Of a stretch of 43,691 nt of DNA, positions 1 to 41,286 are shown one piece after another. Source of the DNA: Desulfuromonas sp. (GTDB lineage: Bacteria > Desulfobacterota > Desulfuromonadia > Desulfuromonadales > Geopsychrobacteraceae); NCBI GenBank assembly GCA_002868865.1, contig PKUC01000057.1, positions 1 through 43,691 on the forward strand, given 5' to 3'. Position numbers and translations under genes: made by a program. The stretch's first letter is position 1; each line of letters starts with the position of its first letter. The notes beneath the pieces are model-generated. The model searched no databases, was not told where the DNA came from, and saw only the letters and a program-made list of their open reading frames with translations.

Positions 1-3000
1 AATATTACAATTGATGTGGCATCTGGTGCTGCTAATTCTATTGTTAAAGAGAGCGTATCTCCAGCAATGATCGGTGTTAATGGGAGCGGTATCGAAGATA
101 CTGCACTCATCACATTTATGGTTCGTGACGGATCAGGGAATGCCGCTCCAGATGACACAGACGTTTCTTTTTCAATTGCGACTGGTGTAAGTGGCGGGGA
201 AAGTTTATCAGCGACTTCTGCTACAACCGCTGGTGGAAAGGTTGTTGTCGCCCTTCAGGCGGGGGATGTCTCTGGCACTGTGACAGTTGAGGCCTCTTTT
301 GTTGATGACGATGGTAATACGATTTCGACTGTCGCTCCGATTACAATCGTTAGTAACCGTCCCGATGCCGAGCACTTGACGTTGGGTGCTGAAAACTTGA
401 ACCTGGCGGGAGGAGTGACGTTAGGCTTGCAAACGACGGTCCATGCTTATCTTGGTGATCGCGCCGGAAATGTCGTTCCTGATGGCACCCCCGTTAGCTT
501 CTTTTCGGAGTGTGGGACCATCGGGGAGAGCTCAGGTTTTACAGCAACATCCAGTTTTGGGGTTGCGTCAGCCGTGTTTCAGTCGTCAGCACCTACAGTT
601 CCCAACTTGGGAGGGCTCGAATGGGATGAGGATGGGGACGGAACAGTTGCTGACGATGAAGGGCTTGGAAACGTTGGTTTGTGTCGCATAATGGCAGCGA
701 CGCCTGGAAAAGGACCGTTTCAGGATAACAACGGAAACGGAGTTTTTGATTCCGGAGATGTTTGTACTGCCGACTTTGACGAACCTTACATCGATGCCAA
801 TGATAATGGTCAGTACGATGCAGGTGAGTACTACGTTGATGTCGATGCCTCCGAGTCCTTTAGTTATGATGTCGCGGATTGCACTGAAGATGTCATGTTA
901 TGGTCGAGTATGAACCTGCTCATTTCGGGATTCTCTTCTCCATTGAATCTGCTGCCAGAGACATTCTCTTTGATGGTGGGGGAAAGCCAAACATTCGTTA
1001 TAGACTTTGAGGATGCTTTTGGAAATGCTTTGGTTGAAGGGACTCGTTTTGAGGTGAAAATGACTGACGGGTCGGGAAGTGAAATTACCGATGCGGGAGG
1101 CATGTCCGGAATTACGGAATTTACTATGCCCGACACGAACGGGTTGGGGGCCTCTTTGAGCTTTTCACTGGCAAGTGATGCTGCTGCCATAGCAGCTACG
1201 CCTGTGACTTTGGTAGCTAAAATCGTTCCTCCAAGTGGAGTTAACAATAACGGAGCAGAGTATCTAGAAATCGCTTCGGGTCAAATAAATTTACAAGAGT
1301 CTCCGGAACCTCCACCGGCTCCTTCGAGTGGAAACCCTGCAAATATCTTGATGGAAGTTTCAACGCACCAGATTTCAGTTGCCGGGGTCGGACAGGAGGA
1401 GCAGGCAAATTTCAAAATCACTATTGTTGATGATGCTGGCGTTCCTATTGTCGAAGATGCATACGCTGACGAGACCTTGAACAACGTGAGAGTTAGTTTC
1501 ATTACTTCACCCCATGGGGGAGAGTATATTGCGGGTGGACAGGCTGACGGGTCGGTAACTTCTAGTTCTGGCTCCATTTTGGTTCGCTCAGCCGATGGTA
1601 TTGTCCCATTGAACCTGCAGGCGGGAACGTTGCCAGGGAACGTGGAGCTTCAAGTAGAGGTACTATACGACGCAGATGGTGTGGCGCTTTTGTCCCCCGT
1701 AACGGCCAAGTTGCCCCAGGTTGCAATATCTTCCGGGCCACCTCATACCATTTCTTTGACCAGTGCTCTTCTCGGTTCTGTAGAAAATATGGTAGGGATG
1801 GGCGTATATCGTCGCCAGGGGACAGCGATGGTTACTGACCGTTACGGGAATAACGTTCCTGATGGCACAATAATTTACTTGGGTTTGATAGATTCTGTTA
1901 TTGCTGAAGGGACTGCTACGAGTATTGCGGGTGATACTGTCACTGCTGCTGCTGGAGCTTTCGATGCGACGATTACTCGCAATGAAATTGAGCGGGGCAT
2001 CCAGCCAAATGATCGTATTCTTCTACGAGGAGTCCCCGCTCAAGACAAAAGTCGGCACGTAGTTTCTGCGGAAGATACTCAATTAATCTCGCAGAGTAAT
2101 TATACGGATCCGGGCTATGCTGCCAAAGACTATCTCGTCGGCTCTTCATTGTTAGGGAGCTATATTTCCGGGACTGCTGTTCGTGGTGATATTTCAACGT
2201 TTTCACCGGGTTCTACAGTAACAAGAGATGGTTTGGCAGACATTTATGTTACATATCCGGCTAACGTCGACACCATAAATGTTGGTTGCGGGGTTGCACC
2301 AACACTTGACGACCGACATCCGCCCTTGGGGTCTTCTAAGGTTATTGTTGTCGCTGCTTCGAGTGATGATAGTGCAACAACCGTTGACGAAGGCCAGTTC
2401 TGTTTCACTCCTATTGCAGGTTTTGGCCTAGCTGCCAGTCCGGCAAAATTGAACGGTACAGGGACCGTTTTGTTGGAGGTTGTGGATGGAGGAGATGAAA
2501 TTCCTGTGCCCTATACCTTTGTGAGCGCTTATGTGACGATCGATACTCTTGGGATCAATGAGAGCTGTTCTGATCTAAACTATTTGGAACAGGACGACTG
2601 TCTCGAACCGACCGTCAACACGTGGACAGAAGGATCGTGTAGTGAGCCAACCCTTTTGTCGAAAACTGACTGTGAATTGGTGCGAACTTGGACCCCCGCA
2701 GGCGAATGCTCAGATGGGATATCTTTGACAAAAGCTACTTGTGTATTGGCAAACTCTTGGACTGTGTCAGGCGTATGCTCTGATGGGACGATATCGTCTG
2801 AGCCTGATTGTCTTGCCGCCTCAGGGGTCTGGACAAACACGAGTTCTTGCTCTGACCCTAGCTATGCATCGCAAGCGGCATGTGAACAACCCCACACATG
2901 GACAGATTTGAGTGCTTGTTCTGATGCGGCGTTTACAACGCAAGTGACCTGCGAGCAAGTTCGGACTTGGACAGACTCCATGTGCTCTAATCCTGTGTTT

Positions 3001-3297: not shown

Positions 3298-5283
<1,986 letters not shown>

Positions 5284-5353: not shown

Positions 5354-8239
5354 CTATTTGCTGCTGATTCCGAACTCAACCCGGGCCGCGCCGCCCTCCG
5401 AGGGCGGCTGATAGATATCGCTCGGTTTCAGAAACAGCTGCCCCTTGATGCTGTCATCGCGGGCTACGAGGGCGTCCCTGACTTGGAGGGCACGCTGTTT
5501 GGCCAGATCGGCCAATTCACTATCGCCGATTGCGATTCGGGCGAGCAGCAGCTTTTCCATATCTGATTCCGGGACGGGTTGCTGCTGTCCGACAAGATCA
5601 TTGTAAACCGTTTTGAGCAGCTGAGGATATTCCTCTTCGTCGATTTCTGGGGTGTCCGGTGTGTTCGCAGCGGCTCCCCGGGCCGCCAGTTGCTGTGTTT
5701 TGGCGGCGCGCAGCTGAGTCTGAAGCTGTGCGTTACGCAATCCGGCGGTGTCTTTTTCTCTGTCGACGAAGGCGCTGATCTCCAGGGTAAGGCCGGGGCG
5801 TTTTTTAAGGATGGTCACCAGTTTGTCCAGATGCCCGTCATTGCCTGGGCTCAGCTTGTCGTGACCACTTTCGAAGGAGAGGTGGGCCAGATCTTCGCCG
5901 TTACCGATCACGGATGCCAGCAGAGAGAAGGGGGATGCCGCGGCTTTCACCAGCAGGTTGCGCAGAATCTTAAAGATAGCGCCGCTGACGGTAAAATTGG
6001 GATCGGTCAGGTCGCCTGAGACCGGAACGTCCAGATGGATCTCACCGTTCTGGTCCTTGAGTAGGGCGACCCCCAGTCTGACAGGCAGTGCTGTCGCCTG
6101 GTCGCTGGCAACGGCATCTCCGAAGGTGAACTGATCGAGGAGGATGTCGTTTTGACCGGCAATCTTCTGTTCGGCGATTCGGTAGGAGAGGTCGAGGTGC
6201 AGCTTGCCCTTATCGACGGCGTAACCGAGGTGGGTGCCGGAATAGGGGGATAGCGGCACCAGGTCGATATCCGCGAAGTGGATTTTCAGATCGGTCGACA
6301 GCGGGGTGCTGAGGGGATTGACGGTGCCGCGGATGGTTAGCGGCGAGTGATTTTCCAGCTGCCCGCTCAGCTCGACGGTCGCCTGGCGTTCCGGGTCGGA
6401 ATGGAGACCGGAGATCTGACCGTTGACCTGATACATATCGGTGGAAAATGGTTGTGGAAGGTGCTGGTCGTTGAAGCGGATCGTCCCGTTTTGCAGCGAA
6501 AATTTCTCGATGTGGAGCTCCGGAGCCGATGCGCCTTCTGCCGGTGAGGCAGAGGCCTCCGCGGGTTCTGGTGTGTTCTGTTCCGGTGCCTGACTGGCTG
6601 TAGCGGCCGTCGCCATATTCAAGCGGCCCTGTGTGTCGAGCAGAATATTCACCAGCGCATCGCTGAGGGTGACCTGATTGATGTGCAGGACTGGGGGAGA
6701 CAGGGTCGCGTTGATGCCGTCGATGTCCATCGCGGCCCAGGTCAGCAGGGTGGATGCTGTCTGCGTTTCCTGCAGGTGGAGATCTGCGATACGGATCTGA
6801 CCGCTGATCTCTCCCTGTATGGTGTCGGGCTGCTGTGTCAGCGCAAGCGTCAGAGCGCTGGTGACATTCCCGCTTTTCAGGGCGGCGGAGATGTTTGCGG
6901 GGAGATATGGGTTAAACAGCGGCAGGGGCAGATCCGTGATCTCCACGCCCAGATCGGCGCTGACAAGGGCGAGCTGGGCGTCACCGCGAACAGCCAGATG
7001 ACTGTCGACCGAGGTGTCGATGGTGAGCGACAGGGTCGATTTATCGTCAGGGTGCGAGGAGAGGTTGTCGACGGTCAGGTTGATGGCGTTAATTTCGTGC
7101 CGAAATTCTCCGTTGGCGGCGTGATCGCTGACATGCAGGGATCCGTCGATCACCTTGAACTGCCCGATACGGAACAGTAGCGGTTGGGATTCATCGTCTG
7201 GCGCGTTTGCATGAGGGGCCTCTGCGGTCGGTGACACGAGGGATTGGTGCGCCCATATGCCCTTTTCGTCGCGGTTTAGATAGAACTGCGGACTGTCGAT
7301 TTCGGCTGACAACAGGTTGATGTCGCGTTGAAACAGATCGGCCCAGTCGAGATCGATGACCATCGACGGCAATTGCAACAGGGGGGTGTTGTCCGCAGAG
7401 CGGATGTCCAGATCGGTGAGGGCCAGTTCCCCGCCGACCAGCAGTTTTGGCTGCGCATCTGACGAAACCCGATAGGCGAGATCGATCTCGGCATCGAGCA
7501 TGCCCGATGTGACATCGATCGGAACGGGCAAGGGGAATTGATTGGCGTAAAACGCCACGTCGATCTGATCGAGGGACAGGACCAGCGAGGTTTCGATAGA
7601 GCGGTGGAACGGTTTTGTCTGTCCCTCCGCGTGGATCTCTGAACCGTTCAGCATCAGGCTGAGCTGCGGGGTGACATAGGTTTCGGTCAGTGCGGGGATA
7701 TTGCCGATGGAGGGGATCTGCAGGTTCAGTTCCCGAACCGTATGGGTCGTTTTCTTTTGCGCGCTATGGTCGGTAAAATCGATGCTGCCGTTACGGATCA
7801 CGATATTGTTGAGTGAAAAGTGAAAGGGCTGATCGGCTTCCGGAGGGGGGCTGTTTTTGTCCGAGGCGGTGAAATCGGTGAAATTAAACGTTGATGGCGA
7901 GGTCTGTTCCAGGTTGACAAAGAGGTCGTCCACCTCGATCCGGTCCAGGACCAGTGCGCGGTCGATCAGCGAGCGACTGCTGAGGGACAGGACCAGAGAC
8001 GTCAAACGGACAAACGGCTCGACGCTGTTCGGTTCGCTCAGATTGACACCCTCTACTCTCAGGGTGAGGGTGAGGGGATTAAAAGAGGCGTCTGTGATCT
8101 GCAGGGTCCGGTCCGTATGGGTTGCCATCCAGTGGATGCCCTGTTTTTTAACCTGCCACGGAACAAGCAGGTAGCTCGCCAGCATCAGCAGAAGAATCAG
8201 GGCAACTGTCCCGAAAGATATTTTTTTCGTACGGGTCAT
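5354..8239 (-). CDS. DUF748-family (AsmA-like) envelope protein
   Basis: This 961-residue protein has an N-terminal membrane anchor (about residues 8-27) followed by a very long periplasmic beta-rich region with repeated amphipathic segments such as SLVLSLSSRSLID, typical of the DUF748/AsmA-like group. The C-terminal part (about residues 785-870) has an OmpA-like pattern (LSFESGHDKLS, then LDKLVTIL and LTLEISAFVD). Proteins of this type are thought to act in envelope biogenesis, possibly as lipid-transfer bridges; that role is inferred from the AsmA superfamily. The start has a good Shine-Dalgarno (GGAG, 7 nt upstream). The gene is divergent from the flavin reductase at 8354 and 70 bp upstream of uvrB. 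Confidence 0.85.
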   Translation of the reverse strand: MTRTKKISFGTVALILLLMLASYLLVPWQVKKQGIHWMATHTDRTLQITDASFNPLTLTLRVEGVNLSEPNSVEPFVRLTSLVLSLSSRSLIDRALVLDRIEVDDLFVNLEQTSPSTFNFTDFTASDKNSPPPEADQPFHFSLNNIVIRNGSIDFTDHSAQKKTTHTVRELNLQIPSIGNIPALTETYVTPQLSLMLNGSEIHAEGQTKPFHRSIETSLVLSLDQIDVAFYANQFPLPVPIDVTSGMLDAEIDLAYRVSSDAQPKLLVGGELALTDLDIRSADNTPLLQLPSMVIDLDWADLFQRDINLLSAEIDSPQFYLNRDEKGIWAHQSLVSPTAEAPHANAPDDESQPLLFRIGQFKVIDGSLHVSDHAANGEFRHEINAINLTVDNLSSHPDDKSTLSLTIDTSVDSHLAVRGDAQLALVSADLGVEITDLPLPLFNPYLPANISAALKSGNVTSALTLALTQQPDTIQGEISGQIRIADLHLQETQTASTLLTWAAMDIDGINATLSPPVLHINQVTLSDALVNILLDTQGRLNMATAATASQAPEQNTPEPAEASASPAEGASAPELHIEKFSLQNGTIRFNDQHLPQPFSTDMYQVNGQISGLHSDPERQATVELSGQLENHSPLTIRGTVNPLSTPLSTDLKIHFADIDLVPLSPYSGTHLGYAVDKGKLHLDLSYRIAEQKIAGQNDILLDQFTFGDAVASDQATALPVRLGVALLKDQNGEIHLDVPVSGDLTDPNFTVSGAIFKILRNLLVKAAASPFSLLASVIGNGEDLAHLSFESGHDKLSPGNDGHLDKLVTILKKRPGLTLEISAFVDREKDTAGLRNAQLQTQLRAAKTQQLAARGAAANTPDTPEIDEEEYPQLLKTVYNDLVGQQQPVPESDMEKLLLARIAIGDSELADLAKQRALQVRDALVARDDSIKGQLFLKPSDIYQPPSEGGAARVEFGISSK

Positions 8240-38230: not shown

Positions 38231-38246
38231 TCACAATATATTGTGT
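38231..38246. promoter_or_regulatory. NrdR box 1
   Basis: TCACAATATATTGTGT contains the perfect 14-bp palindrome CACAATATATTGTG and fits the NrdR consensus (ACACTATATATAGTGT type). It lies just upstream of the candidate nrdD -35 box. Confidence 0.8.
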
Positions 38247-38247
38247 T

Positions 38248-38276
38248 TTGAATGAAATATTATCGCTAGATATAGT
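38248..38276 (+). promoter_or_regulatory. Candidate promoter of nrdD
   Basis: TTGAAT (38248-38253) and TATAGT (38271-38276) are 17 bp apart and lie between and under the NrdR boxes. A second possibility is TTGATC with TATTGT just upstream, whose -10 falls in box 1. Either way NrdR bound to both boxes would block polymerase. Confidence 0.55.
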
Positions 38277-38278
38277 GT
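38263..38278. promoter_or_regulatory. NrdR box 2
   Basis: TCGCTAGATATAGTGT is a second NrdR-type site, better conserved in its right half. Its centre is 32 bp from that of box 1, the three-helical-turn spacing known for NrdR pairs. It overlaps the candidate nrdD -10. Confidence 0.75.
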
Positions 38279-38395: not shown

Positions 38396-40384
38396 ATGAT
38401 AGAATTTATCCGCAAACGTGACGGGCGGCTGGCTCCTTTTGAAGAGGATAAGATCGCCGGAGCCATCATCAAAGCGGTTAAGGCGGTCGGTGGCGAAGAT
38501 ATGGAAAAGGCCACCGATATTACCCGTCAGGTTTGTGGCATCCTTGCGGTTCTCTACAAGGACGGCCGTGTTCCCACAGTCGAAAACGTTCAGGATCTGG
38601 TCGAAAAGATTCTGATCGAAAACGGCCACGCCAAGGTGGCCAAGTGCTACATCCTCTACCGGAAGCAGCACGAAGCCCTCCGCGAAACCCGCGAGTTCAT
38701 GAAACAGTCGATCGAAGCGATCGATTCCTACCTGGTGCAGGAAGACTGGCGAGTCAACGAGAACGCCAACATGGGCTATTCACTGCAGGGCCTGAACAAT
38801 CATATCGCGTCCAATATCTCCAGCAACTACTGGTTGAACAAGATCTACCCGGAAGATGTGGCCGATGCTCATCGTGAGGGGGCGTATCATATCCACGATC
38901 TCGGCATGCTGTCGGTCTACTGCTGCGGCTGGGACCTCAAAGACCTGCTGCTGAAGGGCTTCACCGGCGCGTACGGCAAGGTGCAGAGTGCCCCGGCCAA
39001 GCATTTCCGTACCGCTCTCGGTCAGGTCGTCAACTTTTTCTACACCCTGCAGGGTGAAGCGGCCGGTGCGCAGGCCTTTGCCAATTTTGACACCCTGCTG
39101 GCGCCGTTTATCCACTACGATGAGCTCAGCTATGACGACGTCCGGCAGTCGATGCAGGAATTTGTCTTCAATATGAACGTGCCGACCCGGGTCGGCTTCC
39201 AGACGCCATTCACCAACATCACGATGGACATGATGGTGCCGTCGAATATGGCCAATGAAGCGGTGGTGATCGGTGGTGAGCTTCAGGATCGCACCTATGG
39301 AGAGTTTCAGAACGAGATGGACCTGCTCAATCGTGCCTTCTGCGAAGTGATGATGGCAGGCGATTCTTCGGGGCGGATCTTTTCCTTTCCGATCCCGACC
39401 TACAATATCACCCAGGGCTTCGATTGGGAGAGCTCCCGCTTCGAGCCGATCTGGGAGATGACCGCCAGATACGGCATCCCCTACTTCAGCAACTTTATTA
39501 ACTCGGATATGGACCCCGAGGACGCGCGTTCGATGTGCTGTAGGTTACGTCTCGACAACCGTGAACTGCGACGGCGCGGCGGCGGCCTGTTCGGTTCCAA
39601 TCCTCTGACCGGGTCGATCGGCGTGGTGACCCTGAACCTGCCCCGGGCGGCGTATCAGGCCGATAATAAAAGCGAATTCTTCGCCCAGATCAGTCATCTG
39701 ATGCGCCTTGCCTTTCAATCGCTGGAGCTCAAACGCAAGCAGCTGGAGCGCTTCACCGAAGAGGGACTGTACCCTTACAGTCGGTATTATCTGGGTGCGA
39801 TCCGTGAGCGCAGCGGCAGCTTCTGGGATAACCATTTTTCAACAATCGGTCTGATCGGCATGAACGAAGCCTGTCTCAATATGCTGGGAGAGGGGATCGA
39901 AACAGACAACGGTCAGGCCCTGGCGACCGAGACCCTCGATTTTATGCGTCAGCAGCTCGAAGTGTTTCAGGAAGAGACCGGTCACCTCTACAATCTCGAA
40001 GCCACCCCCGGCGAGGGAACCAGCTATCGGCTGGCCAATCGCGACCGGGCCCGCTTCCCTGACATCCAGACCGCTGGAACCGAAGAGCCGTACTATACCA
40101 ATTCCACCCAGCTGCCGGTCGGCACCACAGAAGATATCTTTGCTGCCCTGTCTCATCAGGACGGATTGCAGACGCTCTACACCGGCGGTACCGTGTTCCA
40201 CGGGTTCCTCGGTGAGCGCCTTGACGATTGGACCAGCGCCCGTCTGCTGGTGCGCAGGATCGCCGAAAACTTCCACCTGCCCTACTTTACCATCAGCCCG
40301 ACATTTACCATCTGTCCGGTTCATGGTTACATCAGTGGGGAACATTTTGCCTGCCCGCACCATCAGGACGGTAAGGCTGCCTGA
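38396..40384 (+). CDS. nrdD: Anaerobic (class III) ribonucleotide reductase, large part lacking the glycyl-radical tail
   Basis: Reduces ribonucleotides to deoxyribonucleotides without oxygen. 662 residues. An ATP-cone regulatory domain fills residues 1 to about 95 (IRKRDGRLAPFEEDKIAGAI). The reductase barrel follows with HIHDLG (165-170), paired Cys 176/177, NMNVPTRVGFQTPFTNI and FPIPTYNIT. The C-terminus ends in a Cys/His region (Cys640, His643, Cys653, His655/656) of the zinc site and then stops. The usual C-terminal RVxG(Y/F) glycyl-radical motif is missing from this frame and is found in the separate ORF at 40432. The ATG at 38396 has AGGAGG upstream. Controlled by an NrdR box pair. Confidence 0.93.
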   Translation: MIEFIRKRDGRLAPFEEDKIAGAIIKAVKAVGGEDMEKATDITRQVCGILAVLYKDGRVPTVENVQDLVEKILIENGHAKVAKCYILYRKQHEALRETREFMKQSIEAIDSYLVQEDWRVNENANMGYSLQGLNNHIASNISSNYWLNKIYPEDVADAHREGAYHIHDLGMLSVYCCGWDLKDLLLKGFTGAYGKVQSAPAKHFRTALGQVVNFFYTLQGEAAGAQAFANFDTLLAPFIHYDELSYDDVRQSMQEFVFNMNVPTRVGFQTPFTNITMDMMVPSNMANEAVVIGGELQDRTYGEFQNEMDLLNRAFCEVMMAGDSSGRIFSFPIPTYNITQGFDWESSRFEPIWEMTARYGIPYFSNFINSDMDPEDARSMCCRLRLDNRELRRRGGGLFGSNPLTGSIGVVTLNLPRAAYQADNKSEFFAQISHLMRLAFQSLELKRKQLERFTEEGLYPYSRYYLGAIRERSGSFWDNHFSTIGLIGMNEACLNMLGEGIETDNGQALATETLDFMRQQLEVFQEETGHLYNLEATPGEGTSYRLANRDRARFPDIQTAGTEEPYYTNSTQLPVGTTEDIFAALSHQDGLQTLYTGGTVFHGFLGERLDDWTSARLLVRRIAENFHLPYFTISPTFTICPVHGYISGEHFACPHHQDGKAA

Positions 40385-40431
40385 TGCCTTGATCGCCAGC
40401 AGGTACGAACCGATGATGAAAAGGAATGAAA

Positions 40432-40578
40432 ATGGCAACCAAGTGTGATGCTAAGACTGAGGTGTATTCGAGGGTGTGCGGGTTCTTTCGCCCCGTTCAG
40501 CAGTGGAATCGTGGCAAAAAAGAGGAGTTCAAGGATCGCTCCGAATACGTCGTTGCGAAGGACAAGAGCGAGCAATAG
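40432..40578 (+). CDS. Separate 48-residue glycyl-radical peptide of class III ribonucleotide reductase
   Basis: A 48-codon ORF between nrdD and nrdG. It begins MATKCDAKTEVYSRVCGFF and continues RPVQQWNRGKKEEFKDR, which is the C-terminal glycyl-radical segment normally at the end of NrdD; the radical Gly would be residue 17 and a lone Cys at residue 5 could complete the zinc site. It has its own AAGGA Shine-Dalgarno 6 nt before the ATG, lies in another frame than nrdD, starts 47 nt after the nrdD stop and has an in-frame stop just upstream (40417). It ends 12 bp before nrdG. This looks like a deliberate split, comparable in idea to the spare-part protein GrcA of pyruvate formate-lyase. Its small size explains why it is easy to miss. 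Confidence 0.88.
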   Translation: MATKCDAKTEVYSRVCGFFRPVQQWNRGKKEEFKDRSEYVVAKDKSEQ

Positions 40579-40590
40579 GCGCGACCATCG

Positions 40591-41286
40591 ATGAAGATCA
40601 AAGGTTTTCAGGGGACCAGCCTGCTTGATTTCCCGGGCCGGCTGGCGGCTCTGGTTTTTACCGGCGGCTGTAACCTCGCCTGTCCCTATTGCCATAATCC
40701 CGGACTGGTCCTTGAACCGGATCAGTATCCCGACTATCCCCTTGCGGATCTCTTCGACGATCTGCGCAGTCGTGCCGGGTTCATCGACGGGATCGTTATC
40801 TCCGGCGGTGAACCGACCCTCGATCCTGGTCTGTCTGACTTTCTGGCACGACTGAAAGAGATGGAACTCGAGGTGAAGCTCGATACCAACGGCTTGCGCC
40901 CTGATGTCTTACGTCCGCTTCTCGAAAAAAATCAGGTTGATTATCTCGCTATCGATCTTAAAACCGCCCTTGACAGGTATTCTGAACTCGACAGCCACCC
41001 CGTCGATGTCGCCCCATTAGTGGACACCATCGCCCTGACAAGAACCTTTGATGTCGCAACGGAATTTCGAACGACCTGTGTGCCGGGTTTGGTCGAAGTC
41101 GACGATATCCACGCCATGGGGACTGCCATTAAAGGGGCCGATCTGTGGGTACTGCAACAGTTCGTACCTGATCATTCCCTCGATGAAAACCTTCATGAAG
41201 TCTCTCCGCACTCTGCTGAGGTATTGCAGGGGTTCGTCCGGTCGGCGGAAGGATACGTAGAGAACCTCACTCTTCGTGGTGTGTAA
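40591..41286 (+). CDS. nrdG: Anaerobic ribonucleotide reductase activating enzyme
   Basis: Radical SAM protein that generates the glycyl radical on the reductase. 231 residues. The cluster motif is C27-x3-C31-x2-C34 in FTGGCNLACPYCHNP, and the SAM-binding GGEP is in GIVISGGEPTL (about residues 68-78). DFPGRLAALVF before the motif is typical of the longer NrdG2-type activases. Its target Gly here lies on the 48-residue peptide encoded 12 bp upstream. The three genes are one transcript by spacing. Confidence 0.94.
   Translation: MKIKGFQGTSLLDFPGRLAALVFTGGCNLACPYCHNPGLVLEPDQYPDYPLADLFDDLRSRAGFIDGIVISGGEPTLDPGLSDFLARLKEMELEVKLDTNGLRPDVLRPLLEKNQVDYLAIDLKTALDRYSELDSHPVDVAPLVDTIALTRTFDVATEFRTTCVPGLVEVDDIHAMGTAIKGADLWVLQQFVPDHSLDENLHEVSPHSAEVLQGFVRSAEGYVENLTLRGV

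Follow-up and report, generated by a model that had tools for sequence, protein, structure and literature searches.

The nrdD locus of Desulfuromonas sp.

Here we describe a locus of Desulfuromonas sp. at which the gene for the class III (anaerobic) ribonucleotide reductase (RNR) NrdD comes in two pieces. It lies in a stretch of 43,691 nucleotides (contig PKUC01000057.1, one of 109 contigs of the draft genome GCA_002868865.1), which we call the window. The larger piece, the nrdD body, occupies positions 38396-40384 of the forward strand (ATG at 38396, TGA at 40382-40384) and encodes 662 residues matching PRK08270 with an E-value of 0. It comprises an ATP-cone (PF03477, E 6.1e-20), the catalytic barrel (NRDD/PF13597, E 3.3e-179) and three zinc ligands (C, H, C), and the glycyl-radical motif is absent: the body covers just positions 1-526 of the 562 in the PF13597 profile and its C-terminus reads CPVHGYISGEHFACPHHQDGKAA. 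A gap of 47 nucleotides (40385-40431), with an in-frame TGA at 40417-40419 and AAGGA at 40421-40425, separates it from a gene of 48 codons on the same strand (40432-40578, product starting MATKC), hereafter the tail, that carries a predicted fourth zinc Cys, the radical loop RVCGFF and RPVQQWN. The open frame of the tail (40426-40578, 50 residues) is +2 relative to that of the body and offers an alternative ATG at 40426, two codons upstream; the ATG at 40432, 47 nucleotides past the body stop, is the most likely start.

That the tail is the missing end of the body follows from its match to positions 526-562 of the same PF13597 profile (E 1.4e-10), and TIGR02487 and PRK08270 are also matched at their ends. 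Since body and tail adjoin on single NrdD profiles, the two products tile one NrdD, and up to E 1 the tail matches nothing but RNR models in either Pfam or NCBIfam. Twelve nucleotides after the tail stop, the ATG at 40591 opens nrdG (40591-41286, forward strand), which codes for a radical SAM activase of the NrdG2 type (231 residues; TIGR02495, E 3.6e-52). A preliminary description of this DNA, made from its letters alone, had already seen a separate tail gene in another frame with nrdG behind it, and its coordinates and open reading frames (ORFs) are confirmed here. Its idea that the radical Gly sits on a separable chain is supported by a body without the motif and a tail ORF that carries RVCGFF. 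It had also called the Shine-Dalgarno sequence clean, which is too generous for the window itself, where AAGGA is only moderate, yet a ribosome-binding core of at least 4 nucleotides recurs at every comparable locus (see below).

Upstream of nrdD, by 165 and 133 nucleotides, lie two NrdR-box-like sites on the forward strand. The one at 38231-38246 (TCACAATATATTGTGT) differs by one mismatch from ACACWATATATWGTGT, which we take to be the NrdR-box consensus and used for scoring; the other, at 38263-38278 and 32 nucleotides beyond the first, has three. These are the two matches in the window, against 0.09 expected from shuffles, and a site with up to three mismatches also precedes nrdD in 20 of the 31 relatives (out of 55) whose nrdD start was located.

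The split nrdD in Desulfuromonadales

The tail was present in 38 of 41 genomes searched, the source genome included, and a tail profile run across the order matched 116 of 136 genomes (again with the source genome among them), or 78 of the 84 of high quality. Among named genome records, for which the best 80 of 154 loci were kept, all 56 loci of the Desulfuromonadales type (L031-L085 and L092; L, G and f numbers are our handles for loci, genomes and families) are split, with Malonomonas rubra DSM 5091, Desulfuromusa kysingii DSM 7343 and Geothermobacter hydrogeniphilus HR-1 among them; a few of the 56 bear other labels (Chloroflexi, Gammaproteobacteria, Deltaproteobacteria metagenome-assembled genomes) and were assigned by sequence. 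Single-contig genomes and many independent metagenome-assembled genomes have the same split. Of 111 loci to which a strict tail pattern was applied, three gave no match: L076 does have a tail, in a variant form (VYARVCGFF), L087 proved to be fused (VFSR), and L086 lacks a tail in the 10 kb around its body.

In 115 of the 116 tail-bearing genomes, the tail resides in an open frame of 46-432 residues; most of these frames were not read singly, and the longest (432 residues, L202) was read and is split. Frames of more than 600 residues occur in two genomes of the order, G105, whose sole match is a fused NrdD of a second subfamily (L140), and G079, whose fused NrdD (L139) is an additional copy that matches plasmid NZ_CP010312 of Geoalkalibacter subterraneus. 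As an aside, G079 combines a split NrdD (L195) with the fused plasmid NrdD (L139, on contig 2) and with an orphan tail whose surroundings are phage-like (L194).

For comparison of bodies with their tails we used 58 pairs, namely the window, the 56 loci above and L100. Relative to the body, the tail is in frame 2 in 29 pairs, in frame 0 in 20 and in frame 1 in nine, and the distance from the body stop to the tail Cys codon ranges from 23 to 302 nucleotides (median 62). A ribosome-binding core of at least 4 nucleotides precedes the tail in 58/58 cases compared with 9.7% of 2,200 random positions, where tail starts were chosen by a loose pattern and spacings are approximate. Substitutions in the host tails average 0.10 for pN (non-synonymous differences) and 0.85 for pS (synonymous differences), and the 24 closest pairs (pS <0.5) give a pN/pS of 0.18: the host tail is under purifying selection. 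Taken together, the split is widespread in the order and, judged by its distribution, presumably old. The view of a genuine split put forward in the preliminary description has therefore been borne out, cultured strains included, with body, tail and nrdG kept together in related genomes. Rather than relatives having a single full-length nrdD throughout, fused forms in the order come down to the extra copy of G079 and the other-subfamily enzyme of G105.

Position of the cut and the zinc site

The typical sequence of fused relatives is CPxHGY..GEHxxCPxCGxxTEVYSRVVGY. Within the order, split enzymes have a body that stops directly behind the third zinc ligand and a tail that opens with M(A/S)TKCxxxTEVYSRVCGFF or similar. 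In all 58 loci (49 different tails) the tail has this Cys, which lines up with the fourth zinc ligand of the fused enzymes, and at the corresponding position the 58 bodies have His (29), Gln (11), Met (5), Val (4) or other residues (9). With this Cys invariant, we regard it as probable from the alignments that the zinc site is shared between the two chains, as the preliminary description had supposed. Cuts inside the zinc site are found in Desulfuromonadales, L100, L144 and L145, and cuts after it in Micrarchaeota, family f36 and the second subfamily.

Structural model

Body and tail of a relative (L075) were joined for folding into a single chain by reading the two stops between them as Gly, on an alignment that included four more read-throughs and 16 fused NrdDs. 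The model has a mean predicted local distance difference test score (pLDDT) of 83.1 and a predicted template modelling score of 0.79; the linker (residues 662-674) fell below a pLDDT of 50 and the radical part of the tail (681-710) reached 82-86. Comparison with solved NrdDs gave Z scores of 27-34, among them 33.7 for Prevotella copri NrdD (8p2s; model range 95..713) and 31.4 for T4 NrdD (1h78; 126..697), the ranges denoting the first and last aligned residue only. A CCR motif at model residues 381-383 is invariant in the 21 aligned sequences. As modelled, the placement of the tail fits the usual site of the radical domain. The C-terminal radical domain of P. copri NrdD, which contains a structural zinc site, becomes more dynamic upon dATP binding (PMC11226230), so such a domain is mobile even when covalently attached.

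Split enzymes outside the order

Across the phylum to which Desulfuromonadales belong, the tail profile matched 227 of 395 genomes; among the matches listed, the strong ones mostly lie in frames of about 690-890 residues and are hence fused, and families f51, f86 and f36 have short tail frames. For the class beyond the order itself, eight genomes were listed, seven with no match and one (G312) with a split of the second subfamily. In the archaeal phylum of G522, 51 of 194 genomes matched, with short and long frames mixed among the matches listed. Weak short-frame profile matches in the archaeal genomes G665, G681 and G565 (L198-L201; several each in G665 and G681) yielded nothing with our motif patterns in the stretches around them. 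Several other lineages have a separate tail in the same order of genes: f51 and f86 of the same phylum as Desulfuromonadales (L121-L128), f36 (L129, L130), Micrarchaeota/Marsarchaeota (L102, L103, L105), other archaea (L088, L090, L095, L142-L145), L093 and L100.

Recognizable by TRVMGYHRPV, the second NrdD subfamily takes the split form at L135-L138 and, among plasmid records, in those of Cereibacter, Paracoccus, Bradyrhizobium, Sulfuricurvum and Cupriavidus; it is fused in G105 and, as annotated, on Acidiphilium pACMV3. On pHG1 of Cupriavidus necator H16, the body (676 residues), an nrdD tail (66 residues) and nrdG are three separate genes. The automatic annotation of RefSeq lists such pairs as 'ribonucleoside triphosphate reductase' plus a small 'nrdD' (H16_RS32680/H16_RS32675 on pHG1, and others in Bradyrhizobium and Sulfuricurvum). 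These share with the window the order of body, radical tail and nrdG but belong to the second subfamily and are cut after the full zinc site. We also observed that second-subfamily splits (L319, L318, L322, L323, L325, L326 and L135-L138) leave the zinc site whole on the body side of the cut, and that several records have a tail overlapping nrdG.

How often nrdD changed between split and fused was estimated on two body trees drawn from 121 bodies, both without the tail columns, with redundant rows omitted and L122 and L128 left out of both. A tree of 69 rows requires at least nine changes; another of 61 rows requires at least 11, against 13-24 (mean 19.5) in 200 label shuffles. L123, L124 and L125 were kept out of the second tree on account of a long-branch warning in the first (L123 with L125). 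Such changes appear to have happened many times, the number being a rough one from quick trees with open forks. Two side observations concern gene architecture: the split bodies L123, L124, L125 and L128 (f51, f86) by eye contain probable inteins, and a longer free-standing tail with a zinc-ribbon-like front stands beside a split NrdD in an uncultured bacterium (L093, about 6277-6555). Similarly fronted longer tails are those of L132 (G422), away from a body, and of the ANMV-1 virus (see below).

Free-standing tails in cellular genomes, prophages and phages

PF13597 searches of G034, G036, G039 and G038 found in each, besides a single NrdD body accompanied by its tail, another tail at a different place. 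No NrdD body was recognized by pattern in the 4-5-kb stretches around the tails of L183-L190, L192-L194, L196 and L197. Phage-like neighbours are found at L184, L186, L193, L194 and L197 (phrog_286, which we take to be a GemA-like family, phrog_2161 and phrog_846), at L196 (Mu Gam, phrog_491), at L192 (Mu Gam, PF07352) and at L190 (phage integrase). The neighbourhood of L188 (the single-stranded DNA-binding protein SSB and HNH) is perhaps phage-like, and L187 (a pyridoxal-phosphate enzyme, radical SAM) and L189 (CobT) look chromosomal; the one neighbour of L185 that was searched had no match. The tail sequences of L183 and L185 recur in IMG/VR contigs (L211 and L203). A further case is the Spirochaete genome bin G529, whose NrdD body contig (L086) is distinct from two tails on other contigs (L187, L188): no tail was found within 10 kb around the body and no NrdG motif among the ORFs near it, and one of the two tails adjoins a radical SAM gene.

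A scan of IMG/VR with the tail profile gave at least 483 confirmed relatives, of which the 80 best loci (L203-L282) were retained; these lie on 78 contigs. Four of these best 80 are full NrdDs, and the other 76 are tails that stand free, L230, L247, L267 and L276 for example, and show no NrdD core motif in the stretch around them. When 46 of the 80 were searched with PF13597 over the whole record, each of the 42 orphan records matched profile positions 504-562 only and each of the four controls matched in full; the orphan-tail records measure 16-107 kb and may be fragments. A search for the NrdG motif in the stretches around orphan tails found none. At eight loci, ten large proteins encoded close to tails comprise three terminase large subunits, one integrase, three helicases or primase/helicases, one ParB-like protein and two without a match. 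Two viral records (G730, G763) carry two different tails each, L205 and L206 (about 5001-5111) share one tail sequence with an in-frame TAA just past RPV, and the tail of L223 starts at a contig edge.

From 91 phage or prophage loci we obtained 85 tails that meet the motif (75 different, several loci repeating one another), the four full NrdDs and L205/L206 being excluded. All 85 (75/75 different ones) have the zinc Cys and an Arg at tail column 31, neither of which the motif requires; the radical Gly is required by it, and its conservation was accordingly left uncounted. Close pairs of phage tails give a pN/pS of 0.45 (63 pairs of 37 codons each, a noisy value) against 0.18 for host tails, so constraint on phage tails is weaker. 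Six tails tried against PHROGs found no dedicated family: the best matches were mostly the ends of NrdD families, the remaining ones being phrog_4132 and phrog_8473 at E 0.095-0.28. In NCBIfam the phage tail L247 matched RNR models only (E up to 1).

In cultured phages (INPHARED), the window tail matched three records at E 0.01 and a phage tail six at E 1. Several of these were rejected as free tails. The match in MT835493 sits within a frame of 810 residues, that in an Oceanotoga phage within a full-length annotated NrdD gene, and that in one of two matched Rhizobium phages opposite a gene on the other strand. The archaeal virus ANMV-1 (L328, 2180-2614) does have a free tail, of 144 residues and with the zinc-ribbon-like front mentioned above, and Desulfovibrio phage ProddE is also among the matches. 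As an observation in its own right, the NrdD-like frame of MT835493 (L320, 1017-3447) ends, by eye, in a glutaredoxin-like domain (TTKTCPNCKMAK) and is followed by a thioredoxin-reductase-like frame.

Discussion

Our findings that body and tail are, at the level of sequence, separate genes with starts of their own, which stay together with nrdG and in the window lie under NrdR-like sites, make it very likely that nrdD, the tail gene and nrdG specify a two-chain class III RNR. As for its mechanism, we envisage that the tail would take up, on the body, the canonical place of the radical domain and thereby close a C-H-C plus C zinc site across two chains, that NrdG would place the radical on the tail Gly within the body-tail complex, and that the radical would then move from the tail to the finger-loop Cys of the body as in a one-piece NrdD. 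Less surely, the separate tail of 5 kDa might be exchanged after cleavage by oxygen, and phages with nothing but a tail might provide host NrdD with it. A body that lacks a radical Gly would make the tail obligatory rather than spare; the idea of exchange gains plausibility from the free tails in phages. To our minds, there is an even balance for and against the tails in phages and prophages of anaerobes, encoded by genes of about 46 codons, being a spare or replacement radical part for host NrdD (split or oxygen-cleaved) that is charged by host NrdG, with the split of the order as an evolutionary end state relying on a loose part.

Several observations weigh against a working two-chain enzyme of this kind. 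The structural model is a single chain aligned with fused relatives and as such no test of two-chain assembly, and the first residues of the tail (model block 671-680) have a pLDDT of 61. Regarding the shared zinc site, 56 of the 58 bodies (all save L056 and L100) keep a His or Cys at +2 to +5 past the third ligand that could be the fourth ligand instead, and the tails of L127 and L128, from another lineage, have no Cys ahead of the radical motif. Twenty of the 136 genomes of the order gave no tail match, six of them among the 84 of high quality; the 20 include all four genomes of family f2. Moreover, an RNR of the class I/II type (PF02867) is found in 129 of the 136 genomes and in 84/84 of high quality, so the split NrdD need not be essential. 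For the same reason, an argument from the sole RNR of the cell fails as proof of function in the order, and it likewise fails in all 21 further genomes of the phylum that were searched (in one of which, G147, the tail match lies in a frame of 612 residues). Of nine genomes reached via loci, five of unknown completeness have no PF02867 match (G522, G523, G524, G529 and G530); G530 also holds a second, fused NrdD, and G522, G523 and G524 are small archaeal genomes with a split NrdD. In C. necator H16, NrdDG is reported to be essential for complete denitrification (PMC2864759), an indication that, in this second-subfamily case, a split class III enzyme is functional in the cell. Weighing on the other side again, this is a different split subfamily with its cut after the zinc site.

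Could the locus be explained otherwise? An error of assembly or sequencing, or a freshly broken gene, might be suspected as the window is one contig from a draft assembly, but this can practically be dismissed: cultured strains, single-contig genomes and independent metagenome-assembled genomes show the same split with widely differing gaps, and purifying selection on the tail speaks against a pseudogene. A chance ORF is ruled out by that same selection together with the NRDD profile match and the presence of the tail in 38 of 41 genomes. Translational bypass is known from T4 gene 60, where the length skipped is near 47 nucleotides, and the gap in the window is about as long. A single polypeptide made by bypass of the gap or by programmed frameshifting is nevertheless very improbable with distances of 23-302 nucleotides to the Cys codon, tails in all three frames, a ribosome-binding core ahead of every one of the 58 and, in prophages and phages, orphan tails away from any body.

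It is also conceivable that the split nrdD of the order has ceased to be a reductase, class II enzymes doing that work, and that body and tail are kept for another role. The frequency of class I/II-type RNRs (129/136 genomes) would suit this idea, which we consider improbable given nrdG directly downstream, the NrdR-like sites, the retained catalytic CCR and purifying selection, and given the three archaeal genomes (of unknown completeness) with a split NrdD and no PF02867 match as well as the reported need for NrdDG in C. necator (PMC2864759). A different scenario concerns phage tails in particular, which might act as decoys or inhibitors that occupy the radical site or NrdG and so shut down host synthesis of deoxyribonucleoside triphosphates (dNTPs). 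Consistent with this, none of the 42 orphan records has the NrdD core, the NrdG motif was not found around orphan tails, pN/pS is higher than in host tails (0.45 against 0.18) and one tail sequence (L205, L206) is interrupted by a stop. Set against these points are the zinc Cys and column-31 Arg kept in 85/85 tails and the consideration that a phage in need of dNTPs is hardly likely to block their synthesis, so that we rate decoys as unlikely, if less so than the explanations above.

How, then, does the proposed two-chain enzyme relate to known systems? With the class III NrdDs of P. copri, T4, Thermotoga maritima and Streptococcus thermophilus it shares the ATP-cone, barrel, finger-loop Cys, RVxG(Y/F) loop, NrdG and, probably, the zinc site, but these have zinc site and radical Gly in one chain rather than on two. 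Two other small free-standing glycyl-radical domains, E. coli GrcA/YfiD and the phage-borne Y06I of T4, are served by the host activase (PMC8683613). The analogy to GrcA drawn in the preliminary description holds in this respect and is otherwise inexact: GrcA and Y06I patch an oxygen-cleaved enzyme that has its own Gly, which the NrdD body lacks, and GrcA is homologous to the C-terminus of pyruvate formate-lyase whereas the window tail is an NrdD tail of about 46 residues. According to PMC8683613, such spare parts are validated for pyruvate formate-lyase only and others for glycyl radical enzymes are possible. Pseudomonas aeruginosa NrdJa and NrdJb (PMC5704485, PMC4009431) are another RNR in two genes with a separate C-terminal zinc-binding part, in that case a class II enzyme without glycyl radical, whose separate part serves active-site reduction. 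Among phages, nrdA of Aeromonas phage Aeh1 is in pieces with function reportedly retained, and nrdD of phiAS4 is fragmented (PMC3653736); unlike the split described here, these are single phages, with a homing endonuclease or an unexplained break behind them, and they do not represent a conserved separate radical domain. The same source lists six cases of split nrdD in phage genomes, introns, homing endonucleases and unexplained breaks among them.

Our search of open-licence literature found no paper on a separate gene for the NrdD radical tail or on lone NrdD tails in phages. Length filters leave the tail out: sequences below 400 residues were removed in PMC9531940, so tails are absent from that set. 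While the split itself is visible in databases, we have not found its breadth, the cut in the zinc site or the phage-borne tails in print.

At the glycyl radical residue, oxygen cuts the protein, which is a weak point of anaerobic DNA-precursor synthesis. The split enzyme would allow separate labelling and titration of radical domain and barrel, and their mixing at will. If true, the proposal made here for the phage tails would extend spare-part systems for the first time beyond pyruvate formate-lyase to another glycyl radical enzyme, and the repeated move of the vulnerable residue to a tiny, possibly replaceable chain, together with viruses that carry the tail only, would point to 'spare parts' as a general way of coping with damage by oxygen.

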